From assembly GCF_001514065.1 (NCBI RefSeq), contig NZ_KQ948422.1, positions 930,001 through 994,000 of the forward strand: a stretch of DNA of 64,000 bases, in the 5' to 3' direction. Below are positions 45,038 to 51,848 of this stretch, piece after piece. The position numbers were made by a program, and so were the translations under genes. The DNA comes from Streptomyces antibioticus (GTDB lineage: Bacteria > Actinomycetota > Actinomycetes > Streptomycetales > Streptomycetaceae). Position 1 is the stretch's first letter. Each line of letters starts with the position of its first letter. The notes beneath the pieces are model-generated. The model had not been told where the DNA came from. It did not search any database and was given only the letters and a program-made list of their open reading frames with translations.

Positions 45038-45919
45038 TCAGCCGCCGAGTTCCAGCGGCCGCGCCGGGTCCTTCGACCACTCCTCCAGCGAGCCGTCGTA
45101 CAGCGATACGTCGTCGCGCCCGAGCAGCGTGAGCGCAAGCGCCGCGCCCGCCGCCGAGATGCCCCCACCGCAGTACAGGACGACCGGCGCGTCGGCGACG
45201 TCCAGCACGGCGCTTACCTTGCCGGCGAGTTCGGCATCGGGGAGTACGCGGCCCGCGGAGTCCAGCAGGTCACGGCCCGGAAGGCTGCGGCTGCCGGGGA
45301 TGTGACCGCGCCGGCTGTAACGGGTGGGAGCGGAGCCGTCGAAACCGCCGGCCGGCAGGGCGCACACGAGGGCGCCGGGCTGCTCGCCACGGCTGATGGC
45401 CGCCACTTCGTCAACGCTCGTCCACATTCCGGGACGCACGACGGGCGTCACGGGAGTCCCGGCGGGCTCGGGAGCGGCCTGCTCGCCGGAGGCGACCGAA
45501 CGCCCGGCCGCTTCCCAGGCCGCCAGTCCTCCGTCCAGCACGGCCGCCGGCACGGAGATCGCCCGCAGCATCCACCACAGCCGGGCCGCCCAGATCCCGC
45601 CGCCGTTGTCGTACGCGATCACCGCGCTGCCCTCCCCCACGCCGAGCCGGGAGAGCCCGGCGGCCAGCGCCTCGGGGGTGGGTACGGCGAAGTGGTACGG
45701 CCCGTCGTGGTCGGAGAAGTCGCCCGTCAGGTCGGCGTGCCGGGAGCCGGGGAGGTGCCGCTCGACCCAGGCGGCCCGGCCGCTCGCGCTCCGGTAGTCG
45801 CCGTCGTGCCGGGGCGAGGGCAGCAGTGCGGTGGCGTCGAGGACGACCACACGGGGGTCGTCCAAGTGGGCGGCGAGCCAGGAGTCGTCGACCAGTGGGC
45901 CGGGCAGCAGGGAGGTCAT
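45038..45919 (-). CDS. Thiosulfate/3-mercaptopyruvate sulfurtransferase (two rhodanese domains)
   Basis: 293 residues. An inactive N-terminal rhodanese domain (about 10-140) and a catalytic C-terminal one with Cys250 in VLYCGGGISA. The CGGG loop is closer to mercaptopyruvate (CGTGVTA) than to thiosulfate (CRKGVT) type. Convergent with metX. ATG 45919 chosen; the frame extends upstream without homology and over the opposing promoter. Confidence 0.9.
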   Translation of the reverse strand: MTSLLPGPLVDDSWLAAHLDDPRVVVLDATALLPSPRHDGDYRSASGRAAWVERHLPGSRHADLTGDFSDHDGPYHFAVPTPEALAAGLSRLGVGEGSAVIAYDNGGGIWAARLWWMLRAISVPAAVLDGGLAAWEAAGRSVASGEQAAPEPAGTPVTPVVRPGMWTSVDEVAAISRGEQPGALVCALPAGGFDGSAPTRYSRRGHIPGSRSLPGRDLLDSAGRVLPDAELAGKVSAVLDVADAPVVLYCGGGISAAGAALALTLLGRDDVSLYDGSLEEWSKDPARPLELGG

Positions 45920-45992
45920 GGCGGCCGATCGTACGCCCGTGAGCTGCGCGTATCGCCGGTCGAGCAAGGTCGTCCCATATTTCGGACCGCGC

Positions 45993-46023
45993 TTGCGCGG
46001 CATCCCGGGCATGCCGCTATGGT
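45993..46023 (+). promoter_or_regulatory. Candidate promoter of the TPP-like riboswitch transcript
   Basis: TTGCGC (45993-45998) and TATGGT (46018-46023), 19-bp spacer. The predicted start, about 46030, falls at the 5' edge of the riboswitch P1 stem. Confidence 0.45.
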
Positions 46024-46032
46024 TTCGGCCAT

Positions 46033-46152
46033 CTACGCGGGAGCCCCTACCCGGCTGGGCTGAGAGGGCGTCTGGGATCCGTTCGTTCGAACGCGGTCCC
46101 CATGGGGACGCCGACCGCACCAACCACGCCCTCCAGGCGTCCCGCGTAGGAG
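46033..46152 (+). promoter_or_regulatory. TPP-riboswitch-like element with divergent 3' half
   Basis: The 5' half matches actinobacterial TPP riboswitches: ACGCGGGAGCCC, a GCCC...GGGC stem, then CTGAGAGGG (46060-46068), an optional stem GGCGTC/GACGCC (46067-46112) and GACCG. The expected GAACCTGATC...GCCGGCGAAGGGA pyrophosphate-binding half is replaced by a sequence that forms a different stem (ACGCC/GGCGT). The outer strands CTACGCGGGA (46033-46042) and TCCCGCGTAG (46140-46149) can pair over 10 bp and would cover the GTAGGAG ribosome site of the following leader peptide. ThiY-type genes downstream fit thiamine control. Confidence 0.6.
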
Positions 46153-46157
46153 TTCAC

Positions 46158-46229
46158 GTGCACGCAGCAGTCGAGCCCGAGCGACCGGTGTCCCACACCC
46201 CGGTGCGCTGCTCCTGTTGTTGTCGCTGA
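46158..46229 (+). CDS. Poly-cysteine leader peptide
   Basis: 23 residues from GTG, ending PVRCSCCCR: four Cys codons in the last six. The ribosome site AGGAG (46148-46152) is the 3' edge of the riboswitch-like stem. The Cys codons lie inside a GGTGCG/CGCACC stem-loop (46202-46207 with 46237-46242), so a stalled or moving ribosome would change folding before the next gene. This is the layout of a cysteine-responsive attenuator. Confidence 0.7.
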   Translation: MHAAVEPERPVSHTPVRCSCCCR

Positions 46230-46292
46230 CACTCCTCGCACCTCTCTCACCGTTCGCCTCGCGCTCTCGCGCACCCTCTTCGGAGTACCGTC

Positions 46293-47213
46293 ATGCCGCA
46301 CATCCGGGTCATGCTCGACTATTTCCATCCTTGGCCGAATTCAGCCGGTCTGTACGTCTCCCGTGCCCGTGGCTGGTTCGCCGAGGCCGGGCTCGACGTG
46401 GAACTGGTCGTCCAGGATCCGGGACGCGGTGACACCCTCGAGTACCTGGCGCGCGGCGAGGTGGACTTCGGGATCTTCCCGCCGAACCGGCTGCTCGCCC
46501 GCCGCGCCACCCACGGTCAGCCGCTGATCGCGGTGGCGGCCGTCAATCACCGTGGCCTGGAGGCGATCCAGACCACCACCTCCACCGGCATCACCCGCCC
46601 CCGCGACCTCGCCGGACGACGGCTCGCCCTGAACCCGACCCCGCGCGGCCGCGCCATGGTCCGCCACCTGGTGGCGGCCGACGGCGGCGACCCGGACGCC
46701 GTGCTCCTCGTCGACGCCGGCACCCGCGAGCTGACCGTCGACGACATCGAGGCCGGCGAGGCCGACGCCACCTTCGGCACCTACTGGTCCTGGGACGCCC
46801 TGCGCGGCGACCTGGCCGAGGAACGTCGGCTGACCTGGCCGGTGGACGAGATCGGCGCACCCCGCTACCACAGCTATCTGCTGGGCACGAGCGAGTCCCT
46901 GCTCGCCGAACGGCCCGCTCTCATAAGGGACTTCCTCGCCGTCACGGCCCGCGGCTACACCGCCGCCGCGCGCGAGCAGGACGACACCCTGACGCTGCTG
47001 GAGGGCGTGATCCCGTACTTCCCCCGCCCGCTCATCGCCCGCTCGCTCGCGCTGATCGCCCCCACCTGGACGGACCCGGACGGCCGTTGGGGCGTCGTCG
47101 ACGCGAGCCGGATGGGTCCCTACGCGCACTGGCTCGCGGAGAACGGCGCCATCGCGCACGACCGGGACTGGGACAAGTCCTTCACCAACGGCCTGCTGGA
47201 CGTGGCCGCGTGA
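46293..47213 (+). CDS. NMT1/THI5-like protein without a signal peptide
   Basis: 306 residues, periplasmic-binding-protein type 2 fold of the NMT1/THI5 family (HPWPNSAGLYVSRARGWFAEAGLDVE; VDFGIFPPNRLLARR). Unlike the lipoprotein encoded next, it has no signal sequence or lipobox. It may be cytoplasmic (a THI5-like pyrimidine enzyme or ligand sensor) or borrow export. Its stop overlaps the start of another leader peptide (GTGA). Confidence 0.8.
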   Translation: MPHIRVMLDYFHPWPNSAGLYVSRARGWFAEAGLDVELVVQDPGRGDTLEYLARGEVDFGIFPPNRLLARRATHGQPLIAVAAVNHRGLEAIQTTTSTGITRPRDLAGRRLALNPTPRGRAMVRHLVAADGGDPDAVLLVDAGTRELTVDDIEAGEADATFGTYWSWDALRGDLAEERRLTWPVDEIGAPRYHSYLLGTSESLLAERPALIRDFLAVTARGYTAAAREQDDTLTLLEGVIPYFPRPLIARSLALIAPTWTDPDGRWGVVDASRMGPYAHWLAENGAIAHDRDWDKSFTNGLLDVAA

Positions 47214-47321: not shown

Positions 47322-48353
47322 ATGCACCGCCGCACCCTGCTGTCCGCGATAGCCGCGACCTCCCTGCTCGCCGTCACCACGGGATGCCAGGCCGACTCCT
47401 CGGCCGCAGCGAAGGACGGCACCACGGCCGTCACCCTCGCCCTGGACTGGACGCCCAACACCAACCACACCGGCATCTACGTCGCCCAGGCCAAGGGCTG
47501 GTTCAAGGACGCCGGGATCGACCTGAAGATCGTGCCGTACGGCTCGACCGCGCCCGAGACGCTGCTCGCGAACCACAAGGCCGACTTCGGCATCTCCTAC
47601 CAGGAGGGCGTGACGACCGCGCGCGCGGCCGGCGCCGACATCACCTCCGTCTACGCGGTCACGCAGAAGACCAACGTCACCATCGCCGTGCGCGCGAACC
47701 GCACCGACATCCACTCCCCCAAGGACCTCGACGGCAAGACGTACGCCGGTTTCGGCGCCCCCTACGAGAAGCCGCTGCTGCAGAAGGTCATCCAGAACGC
47801 GGGCGGCAAGGGCGACTTCAAGCAGATCACCCTCAACACCTCCGCGTACGCGGCCCTTTACGCGGACAAGGCCGACTTCGCGATGCCGATGCCGACCTGG
47901 GAGGGCCTGGAGGCGGAGCTGAGCGGCAAGCCCCTCAAGAGCTTCCAGCTGTCGGACTACGGCTTCCCGGCGATCTATTCGACGCTCGTCGCGTCCTCGG
48001 ACCAGTTCCTGAAGAAGAACCCGGCGGTCGCGAAGAAGTTCGTGGCCGCCCTCTACAAGGGCTACCGCTACGCCGCCGACCACCCCGACCAGGCGGCCGA
48101 CCTGCTGATCTCCCAGAACAAGAGCGTGCTCACCAACACCGAGCTGGTGAAGAAGAGCGAGGCGCTGCTGGCCAAGGAGTACTACGAGGCGGCGGACGGC
48201 ACGCTCGGCACCCAGAGCGCCGAGCGCTGGCAGGCCTTCACCGACTTCGAGTACCGGGCGGGGCTGCTGGTGGACGCCGACGGCAAGAAGCTGACCAAGG
48301 CCCCGGACACCTCGACGTTCTTCACCAACGACTACCTTCCGGCCGCCAAGTGA
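47322..48353 (+). CDS. ThiY-type substrate-binding lipoprotein for thiamine pyrimidine precursor
   Basis: 343 residues. Lipobox LAVTTGC (Cys at about 22) and the motif LDWTPNTNHTGIYVA, characteristic of ThiY proteins that bind N-formyl-aminomethyl-pyrimidine precursors of thiamine. A related sulfonate-binding role cannot be excluded. Coupled by GTGA to the permease gene. Confidence 0.85.
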   Translation: MHRRTLLSAIAATSLLAVTTGCQADSSAAAKDGTTAVTLALDWTPNTNHTGIYVAQAKGWFKDAGIDLKIVPYGSTAPETLLANHKADFGISYQEGVTTARAAGADITSVYAVTQKTNVTIAVRANRTDIHSPKDLDGKTYAGFGAPYEKPLLQKVIQNAGGKGDFKQITLNTSAYAALYADKADFAMPMPTWEGLEAELSGKPLKSFQLSDYGFPAIYSTLVASSDQFLKKNPAVAKKFVAALYKGYRYAADHPDQAADLLISQNKSVLTNTELVKKSEALLAKEYYEAADGTLGTQSAERWQAFTDFEYRAGLLVDADGKKLTKAPDTSTFFTNDYLPAAK

Positions 48354-49111
48354 CAGCCCTGCTGCGGTCGTTGTGGCCGCCGCTGCTGGTGCTGACCGTG
48401 GTGGTCGGCGGCTGGCAGCTTTACGTGAGCGCCGCCGGGGTCGATCCGATGACGCTGCCGTCACCGGCGCGCGTGGTGGAACAGGGCTGGCTCAACCGCG
48501 AGGAGCTGTGGGCGCAGACCCTGCCCACGCTCCAGGAGACTCTCCTGGGCTTCGCGCTGTCCTTCGCGGCGGCTTGGCTGGTCGCCGCCCTGTTGGACTT
48601 CTCCTCGGCGGCCCGCCGAGGGCTGTACCCGCTGCTGGTCGCCTCACAGACGATCCCGATCGTCGCCGTGGCGCCCCTGCTGATCATCTGGTTCGGCTTC
48701 GGGCTGCTGCCGAAGATGCTGGTGGTGACCCTGACGACGTTCTTCCCGCTGGCCGCCAACCTGGCCGCCGGCTTCGCGGCGACGGACCGCGAGGCGATGC
48801 GGCTGCTGCGCTCCCTGGGGGCCGGCCGGTGGCGGGCCTTCCGTCTGGTGCGGGTGCCGAGCGCGATGCCGTACTTCTTCGCCGGGCTGCGGGTGAGCAT
48901 CACCTACGCCGTCGTCGGCGCCGTCTTCGCCGAGTACGCGGGTGCCGAGGCGGGCCTCGGGATCTACATGCAGGCGCAGAAGAGCGCGTTCCGCACCGAC
49001 CTGGTGTTCGCGGCGGTGGGGGTGACGGCGGCGCTGAGCATCGCGCTGTTCGGCGCCACGTATCTGCTGCAACGGCTGGTGCTGCCCTGGGAACGGAAGG
49101 TGGGCAAGTGA
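48350..49111 (+). CDS. ABC importer permease (ThiX/SsuC type)
   Basis: 253 residues, six membrane helices, EAA loop AAGFAATDREAMRLLRSLGAG. Starts at GTG overlapping the binding-protein stop and ends overlapping the ATPase start. The long alternate start in the binding-protein region is a shadow. Confidence 0.9.
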   Translation: MTALLRSLWPPLLVLTVVVGGWQLYVSAAGVDPMTLPSPARVVEQGWLNREELWAQTLPTLQETLLGFALSFAAAWLVAALLDFSSAARRGLYPLLVASQTIPIVAVAPLLIIWFGFGLLPKMLVVTLTTFFPLAANLAAGFAATDREAMRLLRSLGAGRWRAFRLVRVPSAMPYFFAGLRVSITYAVVGAVFAEYAGAEAGLGIYMQAQKSAFRTDLVFAAVGVTAALSIALFGATYLLQRLVLPWERKVGK

Positions 49112-49869
49112 GCAGTCTGCGCATCGAGGGCGTGGGCAAGTCCTTCGGCGAGCTGGAAGTCCTGCGCGACCTCGAACTCACCGTCGACCAGGGCGAGTTC
49201 GCGGCGGTCATCGGGCCGAGCGGCTCCGGCAAGAGCACCCTGTTCAACCTGGTCTCCGGGCTCGACCACCCCACGTCGGGACGGGTTCTGGTGGAGGACG
49301 CACCGGCCTCGGTGGAGTCCGGCAAGGTCGCCTACATGCCGCAGAAGGACCTGCTGTTCCCGTGGCGGACCGTCCTCGACAACACGGCCCTCGGCCTTGA
49401 GGCACAGGGCATGAGGAAGAAGGAGGCCCGGGCGCGGGCCGACGCGCTGTTCGCCGACTTCGGGCTCGACGGCTTCCAGAAGGCGTATCCGTCCCAGCTC
49501 AGCGGCGGTATGCGGCAACGGGCAGCGCTGCTGCGCACGGTGGTGCTGGAGCGACCGGTCCTGCTGCTGGACGAGCCCTTCGGCGCACTGGACTCGCTCA
49601 CCCGGACCGACATGCAACTGTGGCTGGCCGACATGTGGCAACGCCACCGCTGGACCGTCGTCCTGGTCACCCACGACATCCGCGAGGCGGTCCTGCTCGC
49701 GGACACCGTCCATGTGCTGTCCCCGCGCCCCGCCACGGTCGTGGAGCGCATCGATGTGCCGCTTCCCCGCCCGCGGGGCGCGGCGGACTTCACCGCACCC
49801 GAGTTCGCGGCGACCGAACGCCGGGTCTTGGAGACCCTGCGCGGCACAACGGCGGTGAAGGCGGCGTGA
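49108..49869 (+). CDS. ABC importer ATPase (ThiZ/SsuB type)
   Basis: 253 residues. Walker A GPSGSGKS (36-43), Q-loop YMPQKDLLFPWRTV, signature LSGGMRQR, Walker B VLLLDEPFGALD, switch His in VTHDIREAV. Nitrate/taurine/thiamine-precursor subfamily. GTGA overlaps on both sides. Confidence 0.92.
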   Translation: MSSLRIEGVGKSFGELEVLRDLELTVDQGEFAAVIGPSGSGKSTLFNLVSGLDHPTSGRVLVEDAPASVESGKVAYMPQKDLLFPWRTVLDNTALGLEAQGMRKKEARARADALFADFGLDGFQKAYPSQLSGGMRQRAALLRTVVLERPVLLLDEPFGALDSLTRTDMQLWLADMWQRHRWTVVLVTHDIREAVLLADTVHVLSPRPATVVERIDVPLPRPRGAADFTAPEFAATERRVLETLRGTTAVKAA

Positions 49870-50933
49870 GTTCACATCTGGCGCACGGGCTGGGCACCGA
49901 GCCGGTCGAACCCGACTGGGCACCGCTCACGGACACCGAGGTGACCGAGGTCGTCGGCCCGGCGCGGGTGGTCTGGCGCAGCCCGCGTCCCCTGTCGGCG
50001 GCGGCCGTCGTCGAGCGGGACGGGCGGCGCCTGTTCGTGAAACGGCACCACATCACCGTACGAACCCTTGAAGGCCTGGCCGAGGAGCACGCGTTCCTGC
50101 GCCATCTGCGACGCCACGGCGCCCCGGTGGTGGAGGTACTGGACGCGGCGGAGCGCGGTGAGTGGACGTACGAGGTCCACTCGTCCGGCGTCGGCATGGA
50201 CCTGTACCGGGACGCGCTGTCCTGGTCGCCGTTCCGGTCCGCCGTGCACGCGCGGGCGGCCGGCGAGGCACTCGCCCGGCTGCACCTGGCGGCGGACGGA
50301 TTCGACGCACCACGCCGCCAAGTGCAGCCGCTGGTCGCGTCGTTCACGGTGTTCGCGTCCGGGGAGCCCCTGCTCGCGCTGGAAGGACATGTGGCCGAGC
50401 GCCCGCAACTGGCCGCAGCACTCAAGCACTTCCCGTGGCGCGAGGACACCGAACGCGTCCTGCTGCCGCTGCACGAGCGGCTGGCCCCGCACCTCGACGG
50501 GCTCGCCCCGCTGTGGACCCACAACGACTGGCACGCCTCGAACCTGCTGTGGGACGCCCATGGCCAGGTGGCCACGGTCCTGGACTTCGGCATGAGCGAC
50601 CGCACCACCGCCGTGCACGACCTGGCCACGGCCATCGAACGCAACGCGGTCCAATGGCTGCAACCGGGCTACCCGGTGCGCGCGGAGGACGCCGTGGCCC
50701 TCCTGGACGGGTACCGCTCGGTGCGACCACTGACAGCCGACGAATCGGCCGCGCTTCCCGCCCTACTACCGCTGGTGCACGCGGAGTTCGCGCTCTCCGA
50801 GCTCGGCTACTTCCACGGCGTCACACGCTCGGCCGACAACACCCGCCTGGCCTACGACTATTACGTCAGCCACGCCGAGTGGTTCGCCGGAACCGAGGGC
50901 AAGCGTCTCCTGCGGCAACTGACGAGAGGCTGA
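49866..50933 (+). CDS. APH/ChoK-fold small-molecule kinase coupled to the ThiY-type importer
   Basis: 355 residues, aminoglycoside-phosphotransferase fold. The ATP-lysine region is RRLFVKRHH; the catalytic loop HNDWHASN has Asp221 and Asn226; the metal motif DFG has Asp240. Its start overlaps the ATPase stop, so it is the fourth gene of a tightly coupled importer operon. A role in phosphorylating the imported thiamine precursor, thiamine or toxopyrimidine is suggested by context, analogous in fold to thiamine kinase YcfN/ThiK. This is inference. Confidence 0.82.
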   Translation: MSSHLAHGLGTEPVEPDWAPLTDTEVTEVVGPARVVWRSPRPLSAAAVVERDGRRLFVKRHHITVRTLEGLAEEHAFLRHLRRHGAPVVEVLDAAERGEWTYEVHSSGVGMDLYRDALSWSPFRSAVHARAAGEALARLHLAADGFDAPRRQVQPLVASFTVFASGEPLLALEGHVAERPQLAAALKHFPWREDTERVLLPLHERLAPHLDGLAPLWTHNDWHASNLLWDAHGQVATVLDFGMSDRTTAVHDLATAIERNAVQWLQPGYPVRAEDAVALLDGYRSVRPLTADESAALPALLPLVHAEFALSELGYFHGVTRSADNTRLAYDYYVSHAEWFAGTEGKRLLRQLTRG

Positions 50934-51693: not shown

Positions 51694-51706
51694 CACGAAC
51701 GGCATT

Positions 51707-51800
51707 GAGTGTCAGCGACAAGCCCTGGCTTGCTGACCGGCAACCCTCCCGCGCGGTGGGGTGCTCCAGGTGAAAGCCCGGCGGGATCACCGACGATCCC
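51707..51800 (+). promoter_or_regulatory. SAM-IV riboswitch
   Basis: The segment shows the SAM-IV core: the stem GTCAGC/GCTGAC (51711-51716 with 51732-51737) enclosing AAGCC/GGCTT, then CCGGCAACCCTCC, GCGGTGGGGTGCTCC and GGTGAAAGCC. This clan binds S-adenosylmethionine and occurs in actinobacteria before sulfur genes. A GGCCCC/GGGGCC hairpin (51812-51829) follows, ahead of the leader-peptide ribosome site, and may be the expression platform. Confidence 0.85.
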
Positions 51801-51848
51801 CGCAAGCGCGTGGCCCCTTCAAGGGGGCCGGAGATGGGGAGGACCGGC

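Follow-up and report, generated by a model that had tools for sequence, protein, structure and literature searches.

A conserved variant of the TPP riboswitch with a lost diphosphate-sensing half lies between thiamin-type genes and a divergent rhodanese gene in Streptomyces

The RNA described here is a genuine and conserved TPP-riboswitch variant that escapes the Rfam TPP model. The element occupies positions 46031-46153 of the window, the 64,000-nt stretch of the 10.1-Mb Streptomyces antibioticus assembly analysed here, and is flanked by a divergent rhodanese gene on one side and a THI5/NMT1-like gene on the other (Table 1). Judged by its sequence, the 5' half of the element is of TPP-aptamer descent, and the genes downstream of it are of apparent thiamin type. 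In the reading that we favour, although we place it a little short of an even chance, the element would be a switch of TPP descent that responds to thiamin or to an unphosphorylated pyrimidine and gates a cysteine-dependent leader; we infer its ligand, its direction and its response to cysteine.

Table 1. Features of the element and its neighbourhood, in positions of the window.
Feature	Position	Strand	Remarks
Divergent rhodanese/mercaptopyruvate sulfurtransferase-like gene	45038-45919	-	Start codon uncertain; beside the element in 35/36 loci
Promoter	45993-46023	+	TTGCGC (45993-45998), 19-nt spacer, TATGGT (46018-46023)
Outer-helix 5' strand, UCUACGCGGG	46032-46041	+	Invariant in 24 aligned sequences; in silico partner 46141-46150 or 46115-46118
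P2 5' strand, GCGG	46037-46040	+	Inside the outer-helix 5' strand
P3 hairpin	46043-46060	+	GCCC (46043-46046) with GGGC (46057-46060); stem invariant, loop identity 0.78
J3/2, UGAGAG, pyrimidine pocket of the TPP aptamer	46061-46066	+	Identity 1.00 (29 distinct loci); hit by R2, the TPP-only model
P3a with the CCCCAUGGGG bulge region	46067-46112	+	Base near-invariant (identity 0.99 and 0.94); apex 0.56
GACCGCA	46113-46119	+	Identity 1.00; CCGC (46115-46118) is the P2 3' strand
New 3' hairpin replacing P4/P5	46126-46140	+	Identity 0.49 over 46120-46140; three pairs with both-sided changes
CCCGCGUAGGAGU	46141-46153	+	Invariant in 24 aligned sequences; outer-helix 3' strand (46141-46150) plus the Shine-Dalgarno sequence (SD) of the leader
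SD of the leader, AGGAG	46148-46152	+	Inside CCCGCGUAGGAGU
Leader peptide ORF, MHAAVEPERPVSHTPVRCSCCCR	46158-46229	+	GTG start (read as M); ends in CSCCCR
C-rich, G-poor stretch, rut-like	46230-46280	+	Candidate Rho site
THI5/NMT1-like protein	46293-47213	+	Pfam NMT1; no signal peptide by eye; PDB 4nmy 85.7 bits, 3ix1 76.5 bits
ThiY-like substrate-binding protein	47322-48353	+	Lipobox by eye; 4nmy 166.4 bits, 3ix1 104.1 bits
ABC permease	48350-49111	+	Pfam
ABC ATPase	49108-49869	+	Pfam
APH-family small-molecule kinase	49953-50933	+	Pfam APH; candidate thiamin/HMP kinase (putative substrate)

The Rfam TPP covariance model, RF00059, gave no match in the window (45950-46320) or in eight loci of relatives, even at E<=10, which rules out an ordinary TPP riboswitch lying below the threshold. 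A second covariance model, R2, built from the 5' halves only of 21 ordinary Streptomyces TPP aptamers (L077 left out), matches the element in 24/24 sources that carry it, with E values from 7e-8 to 5e-4; the next best match in the 237 kb searched has an E value of 0.4, and no match occurs in the two loci that have the downstream genes without the element (L025 and L026, see below). Chance resemblance to TPP aptamers is ruled out by these matches and by the conservation of the element. The "TPP-like riboswitch" of an earlier note on this DNA therefore fails as a match to RF00059 and stands as a TPP-derived 5' half, and the TPP ancestry of that half is supported by R2; it retains P2, P3, CUGAGAG, the P3a base and GACCG.

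The pyrimidine-side motifs (P2, P3 and J3/2 CUGAGA) are found in 23/23 distinct variant cores, and the diphosphate-side motifs GAACCTG, the L5 loop and GCGnAGGGA are each found in 0/23, which upholds the claim that the pyrophosphate-sensing half has been replaced. Canonical elements carry the L5 loop in 35/38 cases, GCGnAGGGA in 38/38 and GAACCTG in 37/38, the last count being high by construction because the search pattern asks for AACCTG; 52 loci were examined for this comparison, and 14 that the pattern did not match were dropped. The element, which would work as a switch based on half a TPP aptamer, is not a member of RF00059, either by the model or by its diphosphate half. What had been described as one replaced 3' half comprises two things, the invariant GACCGCA (46113-46119) and a variable hairpin region (46120-46140). 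Could TPP itself still be the ligand, its diphosphate held at a new site such as the conserved P3a bulge and its binding turning the operon off? GCGUAGG and a hairpin do remain in the 3' region, the base of P3a is near-invariant and the operon is of thiamin type. However, the three canonical diphosphate-side motifs are all absent, and the aptamer fold would release the SD rather than mask it, which gives the opposite sign; we regard this alternative as quite unlikely.

A model of the variants themselves (R1; 17 sequences, omitting L024, whose 45-nt insertion was misaligned) was used to search for intermediates between canonical and variant elements in 392 genomes of the genus, 147 of the order and 246 of the class, sets that overlap. 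All strong matches were variants, found in 10/392 genomes of the genus, in 5/147 of the order (window included) and, in the class, in the window alone of 246. The weaker matches inspected were canonical TPP elements, namely all 5 in the genus search and all 17 rows in the class search; in the order search, inspection covered the fetched loci L077-L091 only, to the exclusion of its other rows near 30 bits, and the stricter filters of the R1 searches lose some weak matches. All 13 genomes found to carry the element also have thiC and RF00059 matches. In the source genome, an ordinary TPP aptamer precedes thiC and a second gene, which by eye we take to be thiO; since ordinary aptamers occur in the same genome, the variant has been retained alongside them. 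Of these, the one in the thiC leader (L115, ~900-1070) is canonical and has a long P3a, and RF00059 misses it at E<=0.01.

Conservation of the element was followed from a THI5-like protein search of genome contigs, which reaches close relatives only and returned 25 loci, 24 actinobacterial and one from Metabacillus. The element stands 5' of the THI5-like gene in 23/25 of them (Streptomyces, one unclassified actinobacterium and one Streptacidiphilus) and is missing there from L025 (S. phaeofaciens) and L026 (Metabacillus). In the 2 kb upstream of the Metabacillus cluster no TPP-like leader is present, and a search of viral contigs returned no relative. In L025 (2640-3000), where the operon occurs without the element, the coding sequence directly upstream of the operon is, as we take it by eye, monooxygenase-like. 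Genome searches raised the collection to 36 loci including the window itself, several of them the same place fetched twice, and these correspond to 23 to 29 distinct sequences depending on the amount of flank compared. The original observation is confirmed as real, and the element is conserved across species.

An alignment of 24 sequences was made from the window and 23 loci picked by protein match and CTGAGAG only, with no requirement on the element ends, and in it CCATCTACGCGGGAGCCCC, GGGCTGAGAGGGCGTCTGGG, ACGCCGACCGCA and CCCGCGTAGGAGT are invariant. Among the 29 distinct loci, mean pairwise identity is 1.00 in the junction parts, 0.94-0.99 at the P3a base, 0.78 in the P3 loop, 0.56 at the P3a apex and 0.49 in the new 3' hairpin, with 0.67 upstream, 0.73 in the promoter and 0.42 after the leader; the variants in the distinct-locus counts were chosen by exact text at both element ends, so that identity of the ends is by construction, and this selection failed 0 strong R1 matches. 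P3a varies at its apex. Compensatory, both-sided changes are seen at four P3a pairs and at three pairs of the new hairpin, 7 in total against a shuffle mean of 2.6, with 0/500 shuffles as high, though sequences that are related can score above shuffles. Only 69% of the cells of the new hairpin are paired in the A3 alignment, apparently because L021-L023 adopt a different register. Alignment of orthologous leaders had been proposed as a check on the altered half, and the invariance of 46113-46119 together with the three covarying hairpin pairs leaves the note's reading standing as far as conservation goes. L024 (2673-2844) has an insertion of ~45 nt in the region of the new hairpin, and its outer helix is unchanged. 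At the base of P3a, CCCCAUGGGG (46098-46107) is a 10-nt palindrome that forms part of a 5-nt asymmetric bulge; it is kept in most relatives, with one base changed in L010, L027, L021 and L024, and it is a candidate new contact site.

A -35/-10 pattern with a 19-nt spacer, placed 6-7 nt 5' of an A, recurs in 28/29 distinct loci, and transcription would start at about A46031. Because the promoter lies so close to the element, the RNA should start directly with the outer-helix strand. In the window sequence GCGGGAGCCC lies at 46037-46046 and CTGAGAGGG at 46060-46068. CTACGCGGGA (46033-46042) is perfectly complementary to TCCCGCGTAG (46140-46149), and CCCGCGUAGGAGU can pair with CUACGCGGG, the GCGG of which could instead form P2 with the invariant GACCGC. 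CCGC (46115-46118) and CCCGCG (46141-46146) thus compete for GCGG, and the two folds are mutually exclusive; GACCGCA is unpaired in the outer-helix fold as drawn and paired in the TPP-like fold. The outer helix formed with CCCGCGUAGG has nine Watson-Crick pairs and one U.G, invariant in relatives, and a tenth pair (A-U) can form in the window, L003 and L028 but in no other sequence compared. The 10-bp helix that had been said to hide the ribosome site is therefore perfect in complementarity in the window, but it covers the SD in part only, through the A and G of AGGAG and the U.G wobble. At this place, with the tested 5' segment ending at GGG, the variants have 9 bp of complementarity in 28/28 cases and canonical TPP elements 3-6 bp (51/68 loci, those fitting the full pattern); 6/20000 shuffles of the 39-nt 3' segment reach 9 bp or more.

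Fold predictions for the two states are mixed and depend on the 3' end chosen, and as model results they count against a simple two-state picture. The outer helix is part of the predicted minimum fold in 24/24 sequences ending at GGAGU and in 15/28 when 10 nt more are included, the window not being among these 15, since it folds at -62.7 versus -61.8 kcal/mol with the outer helix. With 40 nt more its probability is at least 0.5 in 20/28 sequences (0.84 in the window), and in the L005-like group (8/28) other folds win over it. The predicted cost of the P2 fold relative to the outer fold is 5.3-14.6 kcal/mol, or 3.7-9.7 kcal/mol with more 3' sequence. In prefixes ending 6 nt past the P2 strand, the mean probability of P2 ranges from 0.03 to 0.97 (window 0.56); just before the outer strand is made, the window has dropped to 0.08, nine of the 28 sequences are at 0.00 and the highest value is 0.98, for L022, so that without ligand the aptamer fold would mostly be gone. 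As neither the outer helix nor P2 shows any variation in A3, covariation can neither support nor refute either of them. A pairing of the loop with J3/2, present in some folds, was dropped as it is not common to the relatives compared by eye. The P3 loop (46046-46050; CCUAC, CCUCC in others) is complementary to the SD region at 46146-46150, a pairing that seems to be present in some minimum folds and which, by eye, is not shared by the Streptacidiphilus sequence L022; in these models the loop is possibly a second SD mask.

A strong and invariant outer helix, a leader conserved independently and the loss of the diphosphate-side motifs in 23/23 cores would all be expected of a decayed TPP riboswitch that binds nothing, in which a fixed RNA would limit leader translation or protect the 5' end and the Cys leader alone would regulate. 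This explanation, which we consider unlikely, leaves unexplained why J3/2, the P3 stem and GACCGCA stay identical amid drifting loops and flanks. Purifying selection on the pyrimidine pocket, as read from these comparisons, likewise argues against the "degenerate" alternative raised in the earlier note.

The predicted leader itself is well kept. Its frame, its N-terminus and SCC(C) are retained in distinct loci, SCC(C) in 29/29, so the description of a poly-cysteine leader holds for the predicted ORF, and CTCCTGTTGT is identical in 29/29 distinct loci. The Cys codons lie near the stop codon, and in some loci the ORF continues several codons past the Cys run. The Cys codon of the leader is TGT; the eight window genes counted use TGC in 4/4 Cys codons. 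A single copy of the 12-mer CTCCTGTTGTTG is present in the 10.1-Mb genome, against two of its reversed control. From the Cys codons to the next SD the mean composition over 29 loci is 0.50 C and 0.21 G, compared with 0.34 C and 0.36 G in the whole window, and Rho may act on this C-rich stretch. Poly-Cys leaders are described in mycobacteria and Propionibacterium acnes, with a weakly proposed Rho site, in the available text of PMC1262725.

The downstream genes agree with the THI5/ThiY-type assignment made from the sequence alone, which is borne out by homology in both sequence and fold. For the ThiY-like protein, Foldseek places 4nmy at rank 1 and 3ix1 at rank 2, with the first SsuA at rank 25; 3ix1 is a formylaminopyrimidine (FAMP)-binding protein and 4nmy is thiamin-bound, as it is listed in the available part of PMC10586155. 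The structure model of the THI5-like protein is of low confidence (mean pLDDT 64), and the APH kinase has only weak homoserine-kinase resemblance in NCBIfam and PDB. The gene order THI5-like, ThiY-like, permease, ATPase and APH kinase is held as far as the fetched loci reach, with two exceptions: L004 retains neither the ThiY-like gene nor most of the permease, and in L023 the ThiY-like gene is shortened; element, leader and kinase remain in both. The Metabacillus cluster has the same five kinds of gene, APH included, in another order. A SAM-IV riboswitch (51701-51814, + strand, 92.9 bits, full length) lies downstream of the operon. The poly-Cys leader, the metX, metY, rhodanese and SAM-IV riboswitch nearby and SsuA-family matches below the cut-off might suggest an SsuA/TauA-like sulfur-scavenging operon whose thiamin-like features are merely inherited and whose true signal is cysteine or sulfur. 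The binding protein is nevertheless nearest to thiamin- and FAMP-binding proteins, ahead of any SsuA, and we hold such an operon to be improbable.

Our preferred reading of a pyrimidine-responsive switch builds on how the TPP aptamer divides its ligand. According to the available text of PMC4112796, the pyrimidine is held by P2/J2-3/P3 and the diphosphate by P4/J4-5, and the KD is 50 uM for thiamin versus 50 nM for TPP; in PMC4005666, the k-junction adenines hardly vary and matter for binding. The element has kept the pyrimidine-sensor half (P2, P3 and the J3/2 k-junction) and lost the diphosphate sensor. As the pyrimidine set is unchanged and the diphosphate set lost, an unphosphorylated pyrimidine should be preferred, if anything is bound. 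A second copy of the P2 strand, CCCGCG, is found just 5' of the leader SD, and the GCGG near the RNA 5' end has two possible partners, GACCGC, giving P2 and the aptamer fold, and CCCGCGUAG, giving the outer helix with the SD partly masked. Thiamin, HMP or formylaminopyrimidine would most likely stabilise P2 during transcription, leaving the SD free and the poly-Cys leader translated; the aptamer fold requires P2, with which the full outer helix is incompatible, so that ligand should expose the SD and the switch should be ON. Under cysteine shortage, ribosomes held up at the UGU codons would shield the C-rich stretch from Rho, and the uptake/kinase operon would be made. This operon would import and phosphorylate unphosphorylated pyrimidine or thiamin compounds.

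Several features of the sequence speak for this ligand-gated reading. GACCGCA is invariant although it is unpaired in the outer-helix fold, the junction parts stand at an identity of 1.00 against 0.42-0.73 in the flanks and 0.49 in the new hairpin, the leader is kept in 29/29 loci, and the cluster includes a putative thiamin/FAMP-type binding protein and an APH kinase. Other observations speak against it. The predicted 5.3-14.6 or 3.7-9.7 kcal/mol would be a lot for a weak half-aptamer to pay, and the 3' hairpin has gained no invariant nucleotides that would replace the lost contacts. The operon occurs in L025 without the element, and the Metabacillus cluster without a TPP-like leader. By analogy, the need for the diphosphate contact in switching of E. 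coli thiM (available text of PMC4112796) would also weigh against it. A k-turn-binding or regulatory protein, rather than a metabolite, might instead choose the fold, given that the conserved core is the TPP junction, which is k-turn-like (PMC4005666, available text); the thiamin-type genes point to a metabolite, and a protein-chosen fold seems to us highly improbable. The stronger claim, that the element is a new ligand class drawn from the TPP aptamer, an ON switch for thiamin or an unphosphorylated pyrimidine that works by moving GCGG from one CCGC strand to the other and is coupled in series to a leader sensing cysteine, is one that we put forward tentatively and with considerable doubt.

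The element shares with TPP riboswitches (RF00059, actinobacterial thiC/thiO) the P2 and P3 stems, the CUGAGAG junction, P3a and GACCG, a position before thiamin-type genes and an SD next to its 3' end. Unlike them, it is without GAACCUG/P4, L5 and GCGnAGGGA, is undetected by RF00059, and has a second P2 strand, an outer helix and an intervening leader peptide. Canonical actinobacterial TPP elements have the SD within their own 3' end, as in the thiC sequence of the source genome, and are read as OFF switches. The HMP-PP riboswitch (thiS motif), as given in the available text of PMC6478431, also senses a thiamin precursor, with an aptamer and an alternative stem that exclude each other, but its small aptamer lies within an intrinsic terminator, whereas our element combines a TPP-type junction with a translational mask. 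By eye, no U-run of an HMP-PP-type terminator is present, the 3' stem of the element being followed by CCCGCGUAGGAGU. The poly-Cys leaders of actinobacterial cys operons likewise have Cys codons near the stop, no intrinsic terminator and a pyrimidine-rich stretch, weakly proposed there as a Rho site (PMC1262725), but the present leader follows an RNA of TPP descent and precedes genes of thiamin type. Variants of the guanine-class and SAM/spermidine riboswitches, as far as the partly available sources describe them, offer a parallel, each being closely related to an established aptamer and presumably binding something new. A comparable variant of the TPP class appears neither among the literature matches listed, whose scope leaves out the 2017 survey of variant riboswitches, nor in the available parts of PMC11109978, PMC12452182 and PMC6478431.

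Each half of the TPP aptamer binds one end of the ligand, and a natural, conserved RNA that retains one half only shows how a riboswitch can be dismantled and re-used. Such a half-aptamer offers a direct test of whether the TPP class can change its ligand and invert its sign, and a single leader here would hold a vitamin signal together with an amino-acid signal. If the new-ligand ON switch is true, the operon would be on only when the B1 pyrimidine is available and cysteine is scarce.
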